From the IMG/VR virus record IMGVR_UViG_3300044608_001826, positions 23,476 through 87,475 of that record: 64,000 bases of DNA. The stretch is one strand, 5' to 3'. A model generated the notes under the pieces. That model was not told where the DNA came from, ran no database searches, and saw only the letters and a list, made by a program, of their open reading frames with translations. The position numbers were made by a program, and so were the translations under genes. Below, one piece after another: positions 20,006-50,609 of this stretch. Numbering within the stretch: position 1 is the first letter of the stretch; every line of letters starts with the position of its first letter. Source of the DNA: a virus.

Positions 20006-20081
20006 GCGCATCTAGCAATCTGGTGAATGCAGTCGACTCATAATCGACCTTAGGTGAGTTCAATTCTCACGATGCGCACCA
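20006..20081 (+). tRNA. tRNA with CAT anticodon (Met, or Ile if lysidine-modified)
   Basis: Acceptor GCGCATC/GATGCGC, D arm GCA/TGC, anticodon arm GTCGA-CTCATAA-TCGAC, variable loop of five, T arm GTGAG-TTCAATT-CTCAC, discriminator A and an encoded CCA (20079-20081). All arms pair perfectly. Confidence 0.92.
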
Positions 20082-20082
20082 A

Positions 20083-20155
20083 GGCCGTGTAGCCCAACGG
20101 CAGAGGCAAGCGACTTAAAATCGCTCAAGTGTGAGTTCGAATCTCACCACGGCTA
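20083..20155 (+). tRNA. tRNA-Leu (TAA anticodon) on a short-variable-loop body
   Basis: Acceptor GGCCGTG/CACGGCT (first pair G-T), D arm GCC/GGC, anticodon arm AGCGA-CTTAAAA-TCGCT, variable loop CAAGT, T arm GTGAG-TTCGAAT-CTCAC, discriminator A; 73 nt and no encoded CCA. Leucine tRNAs normally have a long variable arm; this one does not. Confidence 0.85.
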
Positions 20156-23390: not shown

Positions 23391-23624
23391 ATGGAACCCA
23401 GCAAAAAAGTTTTTCTGGTCACTCTCCAATATCGTGCTTATGTTTTGGCCGAGGATGACTACGACGCTGAGGATCTGGCTCACTCTATTGCCAAGGAAGA
23501 GCGCCCCGTGGTTGAAGTCGAAGAAGTTCGATCAAACGTTCTGTCGTGGCCGCTGCACGCTTGCGTCTACCACGCGGAACAACTGGATCGCGACATTACA
23601 GTTCACGATATTTTTCCCGCGTAG
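23391..23624 (+). CDS. Small hypothetical protein
   Basis: 77 residues with a strand-helix-strand order (KKVFLVTLQYRAYVLAEDDY then DAEDLAHSIA) typical of small ferredoxin-like phage proteins. Function unknown. Confidence 0.55.
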   Translation: MEPSKKVFLVTLQYRAYVLAEDDYDAEDLAHSIAKEERPVVEVEEVRSNVLSWPLHACVYHAEQLDRDITVHDIFPA

Positions 23625-45336: not shown

Positions 45337-45406
45337 GCGACAACCTCTAGCTTCTATCGTAGTTTTTATAGGTAAACTACGTATGTAGTTCTTCGGAGGT
45401 TGGCGC
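45337..45406 (+). promoter_or_regulatory. Structured leader that can bury the capsid gene's ribosome-binding site
   Basis: CAACCTC (45341-45347) pairs with GAGGTTG (45396-45402) and the flanking GCG (45337-45339) with CGC (45404-45406), one A-G mismatch in between. The paired strand contains GGAGG, the Shine-Dalgarno. Inside is a second hairpin, GTAGTTT (45359-45365) with AAACTAC (45374-45380). Confidence 0.65.
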
Positions 45407-45407
45407 T

Positions 45408-47518
45408 TTGTTCGTCGACAATGATTTTCCGAAGCTGCTCGGTGCAGAGCTCTACCGTCCGCATCCCGCGTACGTTGTAGAGATGGCTGCAGAGCCGGTT
45501 GTAGTGCACGACTTGGACTCATGAGTCTAGAGTCCCTTTAGGTGAAAGCCTTTAGGTTAAACTCCGTGAATTGCTGGAACGCCGGACCCGAAAGGGAGGC
45601 CAATCAGCAGCCAAGCCAATCAGAAATGGTTGGAAGGTTCAACGACTAACACTGCTCAAATGCTCTCTCGTAGCGATCGCTCCTTTTTAAAAGGAGTTTG
45701 TTTGGGTGATGGCCATTTACGGCAGGTGACTACTTACCCTAGTCTCCACATCGCTCACTCAAGAAAACAGTTTGAGTTCCTTCGCTGGAAAGTGGGGCGC
45801 TTAAACCGAATTCTGGGTATTAAACAACCCATAAAGGATCGCGAGTCTGATTGCCAGACCGGAACTTTTCCTTCCTGTCAATGGTGGTCCAATCAGAACG
45901 AGCTGTTACTACCTATTTATAGGGAACTGTATCCTCAGGGGAAAAAAGTTTTTACAGCTACTTTCCTCAGGGATATCGGTTTAGAAGGACTCGCCGTTCT
46001 CTACATGGACGACGGAAGCCTACACCTGAGAAAGCGTGGTGAATCCACGCAGACAGGAGAACCCTATATTAGGGAACGCATTGTAGAGCTGGCTTTATAC
46101 GTCCCTTATGATACTGCTTTAACGGTATCAGATTGGATAGAAAGTCTTACAGGAGCTTCTTTAACTCCTCGCGTGCCCTCTGCTAAAAAGAGTCCAAATT
46201 TATGGAATCTTCGCGCTAATGGGACAAACGCTAGGCATTTTGTAGAAGCACTTAAGCCTTACGGGTGTAAAGCTATGCAATACAAATTTGACCTTCGTTA
46301 TGACACTCGAACTAACCGAGGAAAGTCAAAATGGAGCGAGGCTGAACGCAACAATTTTGTTGTAGAAGCCGATAAGGTGACACGAGTGCGGAGCACCCAA
46401 ACAGGGGAAAACCCCGCTGTGGGTGATGATATAGTCTACTCATCAACGCCCTTAAGTTGATGTTACGTGAGGATAAAGAGCCTCTCGGTGCTTATTAAAG
46501 CATTACAGGTAGCAAACAACCCGGCCAGACCGTCCAGCTTGATCGTTATCGCTTCTGGGGTAACCCCGGCAGCAAGGAATCCCGTGAGCGTACTGCTGAG
46601 CAGACCATTGGTACTGCCAACAGCCGCAACATTGTGAAGGACAAAGTGCTCGTGACCCTTCGCGAGTACACCGGTCCTGCAGACCCGACTGATCCCACTC
46701 AGCCCAGCACCTTCAAGATTGCTCGCGAGACTCTGATCACCGCGCAGCGTCTTCTGCTGGATACCGGCAACCTGACTGCCTTCCACCAGTCGATTGGTTC
46801 GCTGACTCTGCTCGACGACTATCGTCGTTGGCGTGACCGGGTGTTCATCAATGAACTCCTGAAAGCTGTTTCTAAGGGTCAGGCTTCTGACTCCCAAGGT
46901 GGTTACTACTACCCTGGCGACCTTGCTGTTGGTGCTCTGACCTACAGCAACGCCGAGCAAGCTAAGTTCGACGTTAAGGACGACCTGCTGCGCGTGGTGA
47001 AGAGCCTGCGTAAGCGTAACGTTCCTACCTACCAGGACGGTTTCTATCGCTGCGTTTGCGATCCTACCTTCCTGATGCACCTGCGCCAGAACAGCGACTT
47101 CCGTGAAGTTGCTCGTTATCCCGGCAACGGTCAAATCAACCCCCTCATGTCCTCGATGCAGCCCAACGCTGCTCTGTACATGGGTCAGGGCTTCGGTCAA
47201 GCCACCTTCGTGGCTGGTGAGCCGATCATGCCCACCGGTTTCGTTTTTGAGGGCGTGCGATTCTTCGAATCCACCAACATGCCTTCGCAAAGCGCTACCG
47301 CTACCATTGGCGGCACCTCGTCTTCGTACGAAACCGCTATCGGTATGTTCTTCGGTCCCCAGAGCGTAGGCGTCGGTATCGGCGGCAACAACGCTCAGGT
47401 GCTGCTGAACAACAATGACGACTTCAGCCGTTTCATCATGATGATTTGGAGCCTGTACGCAGGTTTCGAACTTCTGAACGCTGATTTCGCCACCATCGCT
47501 TACTCCTTTAACGCCTGA
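45408..47518 (+). CDS. Major capsid protein, N4-gp56-like, split by a group I intron (exons 45408-45514 and 46513-47518)
   Basis: Joining the two exons gives 370 residues. Exon 1 (TTG at 45408, GGAGG 8 nt upstream) encodes FVDNDFPKLLGAELYRPHP ... VVVHD; exon 2 continues FKQPGQTVQLDRYRFWG and ends FATIAYSFNA. The core (RWRDRVFINELLKAV, DGFYRCVCDPTFLMHLRQN) fits the N4-gp56 family of major capsid proteins; that family call is moderate, the capsid role is strong from position (after portal and scaffold), length and codon use. Exon 2 is rich in C-ending codons, unlike its neighbours, as expected for a very highly expressed gene. Without splicing, exon 1 reads into a stop at 45528. Confidence 0.82.
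45515..46512 (+). other. Group I self-splicing intron (998 nt) in the capsid gene
   Basis: All four conserved core elements can be read: P near 45569 (AATTGCTGGAAC), Q AATCAGCAGCCAAGCC (45602-45617), R GTTCAACGACTA (45637-45648) and S GATATAGTCTA (46428-46438). P pairs with Q (P4) and R with S (P7, GACTA/TAGTC). The 5' exon end GACTT pairs with intron GAGTC (45523-45527), leaving the required U-G wobble at the splice point after 45514. The intron ends in G at 46512, which restores the capsid frame. The endonuclease ORF is inserted between R and S. Confidence 0.85.
45660..46460 (+). CDS. LAGLIDADG homing endonuclease (intron-encoded)
   Basis: 266 residues from the ATG at 45660. Two LAGLIDADG helices are present: FLKGVCLGDG (9-18) and GLAVLYMDDG (110-119), each with its metal-binding acidic residue. 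Such enzymes cut intronless capsid alleles and spread the intron. The last codons cover the S element of the intron, so the end of the gene is also a ribozyme part. Confidence 0.9.
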   Translation: MLSRSDRSFLKGVCLGDGHLRQVTTYPSLHIAHSRKQFEFLRWKVGRLNRILGIKQPIKDRESDCQTGTFPSCQWWSNQNELLLPIYRELYPQGKKVFTATFLRDIGLEGLAVLYMDDGSLHLRKRGESTQTGEPYIRERIVELALYVPYDTALTVSDWIESLTGASLTPRVPSAKKSPNLWNLRANGTNARHFVEALKPYGCKAMQYKFDLRYDTRTNRGKSKWSEAERNNFVVEADKVTRVRSTQTGENPAVGDDIVYSSTPLS

Positions 47519-49441: not shown

Positions 49442-49942
49442 TTAAATCCAATCCCAAGTTTCACCGTTTTTTATGGCGTAGATATTTCGTCTGTCTACGC
49501 CATATTTTTTAGCTAGTCTCGTAATTAAACCTCTACACGGTGTGCTTAAGGCTATTTTTATATTTTTTACATCTTCTTCACTTAATTTATTGTTTGGGTG
49601 TTTTTCTCCTCTAATACCTTTATTTTTATACTTATTTCTATTTAATTGTTGTTCTTTTTTTGTGGCCCATCGGCAATTTTCTGGAGAATACCCTTTGTTA
49701 TTATCTATTCGATCTAGTGAGTGAGCTTTGGACGGTTTAGGACCCATATCCGCAATAAAGTTTTGAAACCCTTCGGAAGTCTTACCTCCATTTCTGCGAT
49801 TAATTAACCATCTATCGCATACGGTTATTCCTCTGTTTCCGTATTTTGCGTAAGCCCTGTGAGACTTGCAATAACAACGCGTAAGCATAGATCTGTATGT
49901 ATTTTGAAGAGGATGCTCTGCCCATAATCGCGGTTGAGTCAT
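49442..49942 (-). CDS. Free-standing HNH homing endonuclease
   Basis: 166 residues from the ATG at 49942. NTYRSMLTRCY, YGNRGITVCDRW, HSLDRIDNNKGYSPENCRW form the HNH core with its zinc-less R-x-N ending typical of phage HNH endonucleases. The C-terminal part (LSEEDVKNIKIAL, LAKKYGVDRRNIYAIK) is a NUMOD-like DNA-binding helix-turn-helix. It lies against the direction of the surrounding structural genes, two bases after a stop codon, as inserted mobile endonucleases do. Confidence 0.88.
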   Translation of the reverse strand: MTQPRLWAEHPLQNTYRSMLTRCYCKSHRAYAKYGNRGITVCDRWLINRRNGGKTSEGFQNFIADMGPKPSKAHSLDRIDNNKGYSPENCRWATKKEQQLNRNKYKNKGIRGEKHPNNKLSEEDVKNIKIALSTPCRGLITRLAKKYGVDRRNIYAIKNGETWDWI

Positions 49943-49988
49943 GTCTCGTTTTTCAGGGATTAGACTATAGCATAAAGGCCCCTTAATC

Positions 49989-50609
49989 ATGGCTCAGCTT
50001 ACAACGCAAGAGTTAGAACAAATACAAAGTTACCTAGCTCAACAAGGTGTTGTATTTCAACCTGATGTTACTGATGCCACTAAAAGAGAAATAATTTATG
50101 CGACTATTAATCAACTAACGCGTAACCCAGCGCAAACGTTTGGTTACCGTCTTGATGATTTTAACTTTAGTCGCGTAGCATATCACTTAGGTTACAATAT
50201 TGCCACGGTTCCTGCGGGTGATTATGCCCGCTTGATGGAAGCGTGCAATAGCGTTCCTAGCGAGTACTACTACGACAAAATCGTTCAACAGATCGAACGT
50301 TGCGAAGATGCTGAGCGTTTAACTGAGCTTGCTACGGGTCGAGCAACCAGTCGTCAAGAGACGATCTTGGGTGACGTTAGCCGCTCGATCAACATTCAAG
50401 ATAAACGGGAGACCGCCCGAATCTGGCGGGAGAACTACCTGTATGAGTGTGATCGATTAGCTCACATGCTGTATGTTCCTAACTACCGAGACCCCGTGGC
50501 AGCACGTTATCGGTTCGAACGTAGTGGCGGTGAGTTTATCCAAGCTCTGCCTGGACCGCCTGATGTTTCCCGGTCTGACCGTCTTTATTTCTACGCGAAT
50601 TGGCGATAA
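49989..50609 (+). CDS. Probable head-tail connector protein
   Basis: 206 residues, acidic and helical with many Tyr and Arg (YNIATVPAGDYARLMEACNS, RRDW-less). Its length and place after the capsid genes fit a head completion or adaptor protein. No family recognised; the role is by position only. Confidence 0.55.
   Translation: MAQLTTQELEQIQSYLAQQGVVFQPDVTDATKREIIYATINQLTRNPAQTFGYRLDDFNFSRVAYHLGYNIATVPAGDYARLMEACNSVPSEYYYDKIVQQIERCEDAERLTELATGRATSRQETILGDVSRSINIQDKRETARIWRENYLYECDRLAHMLYVPNYRDPVAARYRFERSGGEFIQALPGPPDVSRSDRLYFYANWR

Follow-up and report, generated by a model that had tools for sequence, protein, structure and literature searches.

A group I intron with a LAGLIDADG endonuclease gene in a cyanophage capsid gene that carries introns at 17 or more positions among relatives

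The window analysed here is a stretch of 64,000 nucleotides (positions 23,476 to 87,475) of the IMG/VR virus record IMGVR_UViG_3300044608_001826, which has 87,475 bases and comes from an S-EIV1-like cyanophage. The capsid gene of this phage lies in two exons, separated by the only group I match of the record. The features of the locus are as follows.

45395-45399: SD-like GGAGG upstream of capsid exon 1
45408-45514, + strand: capsid exon 1, TTG start, 35 codons and 2 nt (tblastn and spliced alignment to intronless relatives)
45515-46509, + strand: group I intron of 995 nt at CDS nt 107, interrupting the Phe36 codon in phase 2 (RF00028; sole in-frame U/G cut restoring the protein of the relatives)
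45522-45524, + strand: in-frame stop TGA on the unspliced RNA
45660-46460, + strand: LAGLIDADG homing endonuclease gene, 266 aa from ATG (PF03161, E 1.9e-12; phrog_11023, E 6.2e-15)
46509, + strand: terminal (omega) G of the intron
46510-47518, + strand: capsid exon 2, ending in TGA (phrog_1357, E 4.7e-22; 66.7% identity to S-EIV1)

The exons were assigned to the major head protein family phrog_1357 (E 4.7e-22 and 1.3e-22); a Pfam search gave no match for the capsid protein. The question of an HK97 fold was approached with an AlphaFold2 model of the capsid of an intronless relative, which reached a mean pLDDT of 31.5 from a shallow alignment and was too poor for use. The start point is common to the relatives, which have ATG, GTG or TTG at the same position. 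With the TTG start included, the restored frame has 371 codons, and not 370 as in the initial annotation of this DNA. The nearest isolate for exon 2 is Synechococcus phage S-EIV1. Its capsid gene (L081:3890-5017, KJ410740.1) starts with GTG and is free of introns; in GenBank it appears to be mis-annotated, its beginning being covered by an antisense hypothetical ORF and its sense annotation being limited to the last part. A 58% identical capsid relative was found on a 792-kb contig of Nodosilinea nodulosa PCC 7104 (L397), perhaps in a prophage of an S-EIV1-like lineage. The window also has a free-standing HNH endonuclease gene close to the capsid genes (49442-49990, - strand; phrog_374, E 2.9e-39) and a pair of adjacent tRNA genes at 20006-20155.

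Positions 45400-46700 were searched with cmscan. The sole Rfam match was the group I intron model RF00028, at 45509-46462 on the + strand (model positions 1-253, 49.9 bits, E 2.2e-11). The score is 0.1 bit under the gathering cutoff of 50, and a default Rfam scan of the whole window at cutoff missed the capsid intron. Many relatives, with introns at the same and at other sites, scored 51.7-101.6 bits. Routine annotation is affected at both levels, as the default cutoff misses the intron and the ORF caller gives just a truncated capsid ORF starting at GTG 46634.

For comparison, 80 IMG/VR relatives of the capsid locus were retrieved. The relatives used in the main comparison are all metagenome contigs, and the isolate S-EIV1 is without an intron at the site of the window (capsid nt 107, hereafter site 107). 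About 60 intronless relatives have an uninterrupted capsid frame. Two codons, nearly always Phe-Ser, separate HD from KQPG in every intronless relative examined. The same interval measures 1001 nt in the intron-bearing relatives of the type found in the window, and the intron is therefore 995 nt long (45515-46509). Enumeration of the neighbourhood gave 19 in-frame cuts that obey the rule of an exon-end U and an intron-terminal G, and only one of them, 45515-46509, restores the protein of the family. An identical 995-nt answer was returned for many distinct contigs with this type of intron by a spliced-alignment program applying the U/G rule. The predicted spliced junction joins GACTT to TAGCAAAC, with 995 nt removed. 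Automatic splice calls that lacked core motifs, mostly at contig ends, were discarded (L036, L042, L056, L070, L173, L259, L283, L284, L314 and L396).

The initial annotation had already recognized capsid exons flanking a group I intron on this strand, which the Rfam match bears out, and had correctly set the 5' splice site at 45514/45515. Its principle that the splice sites are predictable was sound. The 3' site that it predicted, 46512, was one codon off: the resulting 998-nt intron deletes a Ser codon retained by the intronless relatives, and its statement that no other nearby cut fits is contradicted by the 19 cuts enumerated above. Translation of the insert within the capsid protein, as an intein or an in-frame insertion, is ruled out by the in-frame stop at 45522. 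It also conflicts with the group I core and with the protein of the relatives, which has no insertion at the intron point; its probability is negligible.

The RNA structure was analysed on 15 aligned intron cores, eight at site 107 and seven at site 109. In the window the elements are as follows.

45510-45514, + strand: 5' exon half of P1, GACUU, its last U in the U.G pair (RNAalifold, pair counts)
45516-45527, + strand: P1 extension hairpin, GACU/AGUC (compensatory changes)
45530-45534, + strand: internal guide sequence GAGUC, paired with exon GACUU (U45514.G45530)
45562-45568, + strand: P3 5' strand, paired with 46387-46393
45571-45576, + strand: P4 5' strand, paired with 45605-45610
45616-45633, + strand: P6 hairpin
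45644-45648, + strand: P7 5' strand GACUA, paired with UAGUC 46432-46436
46394-46425, + strand: P8
46432-46436, + strand: P7 3' strand UAGUC
46441-46462, + strand: P9 (compensatory changes)
46466-46487, + strand: P9.1 (compensatory changes)
46489-46502, + strand: P9.2 (compensatory changes)

Pairing was maintained in 98.9% of cells over 78 pairs, including the P3/P7 pseudoknot, compared with 33-45% in slid controls; the pseudoknot pairs are kept in 15/15 alleles. Double (compensatory) changes were found at 26 of the 78 pairs. Shuffling gave a mean of 11.9 and reached the observed number in 0/500 shuffles, a count that is not a probability since the 15 alleles are related; the argument rests on the double changes, together with the drop in slid controls. 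The guide at 45530-45534 (GAGTC in DNA) is invariant among site-107 alleles and was paired with the exon by RNAalifold. Another GAGTC, at 45523-45527, had been taken as the guide in the initial annotation. That copy varies among alleles (AAGTC, ACGTC, GGGTC, GTGTC) and belongs to the P1 extension; the U-G pair proposed at the 5' site is real, with G45530 as the partner of U45514, and the P4 and P7 pairings proposed there also exist. Alleles at site 109 pair exon UUCU with GGAA; exon and guide have therefore changed together. A short P10 is a candidate pairing, between AG 46511-46512 and CU 45527-45528.

The ORF inside the intron belongs to LAGLIDADG_2 (PF03161). It lies between the 5' strand of P7 and the 3' strand of P3, its 3' end overlaps the ribozyme core, and an alternative upstream start at TTG 45630 is possible. 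Both LAGLIDADG motifs are intact with their acidic residues (LKGVCLGDG and LAVLYMDDG), as they are in nearly all alleles. The median dN/dS among alleles is ~0.08, which indicates purifying selection on the endonuclease. No relatives of this endonuclease were found in 84,980 cellular genomes. The insert could in principle be a decayed remnant, unable to splice, on a contig from a defective phage, and the 96-aa truncated ORF of L023 shows that endonuclease decay can occur. However, all helices are maintained by compensatory changes, the endonuclease of the window is intact and the same 995-nt intron is present in many distinct contigs, so that a remnant is very improbable. With the Rfam match, the intronless relatives, the covariation and the endonuclease, a group I intron in the capsid gene is strongly supported.

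Mobility was examined on a maximum likelihood tree of the distal part of the capsid gene (nt 300-1113). The presence of the intron at site 107 requires six changes on this tree, at least four of which are forced by well-supported branches. The sisters L021 (with intron) and L024 (without) differ at 49 positions, and 35/49 lie within the initial 180 nt that surround the intron. At nt 107-150 the identity of site-107 alleles was 0.117 higher than their distal divergence predicts; at nt 180-300 the excess was 0.006. This excess was equalled by 0 (nt 107-150) and 28% (nt 180-300) of 2000 random subsets of intronless phages, the phages drawn on not being mutually independent. Because presence on the capsid tree is patchy and the flanks show co-conversion, the pattern being that of homing, the element appears to home in nature.

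The reading that we favour, at a probability of about 0.94, is that of a mobile group I intron carrying a LAGLIDADG endonuclease, which would self-splice and home in the capsid gene and which is one of several lineages settled at 17 or more positions of that gene across the phage group. In the transcript, exon GACUU would pair with guide GAGUC, and the intron would excise itself at 45514/45515 and 46509/46510 to leave the restored frame. The endonuclease would presumably cleave capsid genes that lack the intron, close to where it is inserted. Repair would then copy the intron into relatives together with ~100-200 nt of flanking exon, in keeping with the observed tracts and patchiness.

The initial annotation had held that splicing is required for a virion to form. 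This is a reasonable deduction, as translation of the unspliced RNA would end at TGA 45522-45524 after 38 codons. It had gone on to suggest that the intron links capsid production to the state of the cell, and nothing in our results supports such a link. As a regulatory switch, slow or conditional splicing would tie capsid synthesis to cell state; capsid synthesis would wait for splicing, and the idea of introns as sensors has been discussed for phage introns generally (PMC11878797). However, near-identical phages exist with and without the intron, no conserved element was seen beyond the usual ribozyme helices, and intron presence tracks homing. We therefore regard a switch as improbable. What the co-conversion tracts, and the patchy distribution among near-identical phages, do fit is a mobile element of a selfish or competitive kind.

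Validated group I introns were found at 17 sites of the capsid gene of the relatives (nt of the nearest intronless reference: 8, 12, 18, 19, 51, 92, 107, 109, 144, 257, 397, 418, 432, 651, 696, 720 and 849). In a sample selected on an exon DNA pattern, without regard to intron content, 13/108 distinct complete genes, with only identical sequences collapsed, carried at least one intron. The L188 gene (3637-6302), whose first exon is 12 nt long, has six, at sites 12, 107, 257, 432, 651 and 720, and all six match Rfam (51.7-101.5 bits). Five introns were found in L322 and four in L138. These multi-intron genes were assembled from metagenomes; the four introns common to L138 and L322 are seen in two contigs, and L188 is one contig. 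The intron sites fall at conserved codons (mean consensus 0.926 vs 0.828, P 0.0005). Almost all RF00028 matches in intron-bearing records lie within the capsid gene or at its edge (65/67); the only ones found outside it are upstream, at L383:1917-2430.

Sense LAGLIDADG endonucleases were found at sites 107, 109 and 144, and antisense phrog_4645 endonucleases with LAGLIDADG-like motifs at sites 92 and 418 (L010:1358-2188, - strand, and L158:4133-4915), in a LittleE-like orientation. An antisense HNH endonuclease (L101:2701-3306) lies in an 810-nt intron at site 12, four codons past the capsid start. Several multi-intron genes have some introns without endonuclease. At L064:1640-3010, two group I introns, at site 92 without and at site 109 with an endonuclease, are separated by an exon of 17 nt.

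On the intron tree, the type of the window (100/98) is nested among site-109 introns, those of site 92 group as sisters with those of site 418 (97/91), and three origins are required for site 107. The tree, some of whose deep branches are weak and long, suggests that introns have moved from one site to another within the gene. The site-107 intron of L188 is 0.74 identical to the site-432 intron of the same gene and at most 0.57 to other site-107 introns; within-gene duplication is possible, with moderate support on the tree. A tentative extension, to which we give somewhat less than even odds, is that the capsid gene is an intron hot spot whose lineages have repeatedly been re-sited by reverse splicing or retargeted endonucleases, exon and guide co-evolving. 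The site-107 intron of the window would have arisen by a 2-nt shift of a site-109 intron, those at 92 and 418 would be sister lineages, site 107 would have been colonised independently about three times, and the accumulation of up to six introns per gene might be driven by competition between phages over the capsid. Whether group I introns come to occupy new sites by reverse splicing, boundary shift or new endonucleases is a long-standing question, for which phages have offered few natural data. Hundreds of related capsid genes, with 0-6 introns at 17 positions and some near-identical but for the intron, form a natural series, and the exon/guide covariation at sites 2 nt apart makes the question of site change directly testable.

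Capsid introns themselves are already known, and the new part is the scale: 17 sites, and up to six introns in one capsid gene. A spliced intron in the major capsid gene is established for mycobacteriophage LittleE (PMC3706429), and the same paper also cites Tuc2009. The LittleE intron is self-splicing and most likely group I, self-splicing being predicted for the present one; both have a LAGLIDADG endonuclease, an exon-end U and an intron-end G. The LittleE endonuclease is antisense, as are those at sites 92 and 418 of the present family, and RT-PCR with N-terminal sequencing demonstrated that the LittleE intron is spliced, whereas the enzyme of the cyanophage window is in sense and splicing is deduced. 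Phage genes with several group I introns each are described from Bastillevirinae and Twort; they are polymerase, terminase and similar genes. That source (PMC11878797, citing Twort) gives three per gene as the most found, against up to six in the ~1.1 kb capsid gene here. A literature search, with many subscription papers outside its reach, found no report of four or more in one phage gene. In the huge 'Jug' phages, too, essential genes are divided by numerous group I introns, but these are spread over many genes, with terL in two to three pieces (PMC12363816), whereas nearly all matches here are in one gene. The I-PfoP3I intron of the freshwater cyanophage Pf-WMP3 also bears an endonuclease; it is located in the DNA polymerase gene and encodes an HNH enzyme, unlike the capsid gene and LAGLIDADG enzyme found here (PMC3428280).

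The intron endonuclease gp210 of PhiPA3 is aimed at an essential gene of relatives (PMC11620839). By analogy with PhiPA3 against PhiKZ, the present enzyme might serve mainly to cut the capsid gene when an intronless phage co-infects, which would block assembly of the latter, a role that would add to homing and is compatible with it. The target is an essential late gene, and several unrelated endonucleases (LAGLIDADG in sense and antisense, HNH) occur in it. Several multi-intron genes, however, have introns devoid of endonuclease. In PhiPA3 competition was shown, and gp210 is an HNH nicking enzyme. We think such a use as a weapon less likely than not. A minor observation concerns the intron-bearing capsid gene of L042, where a small deletion and frameshift lie in the 5' exon near 2035 (GCGGAG|TAGTCC), either a real mutation or an assembly error.
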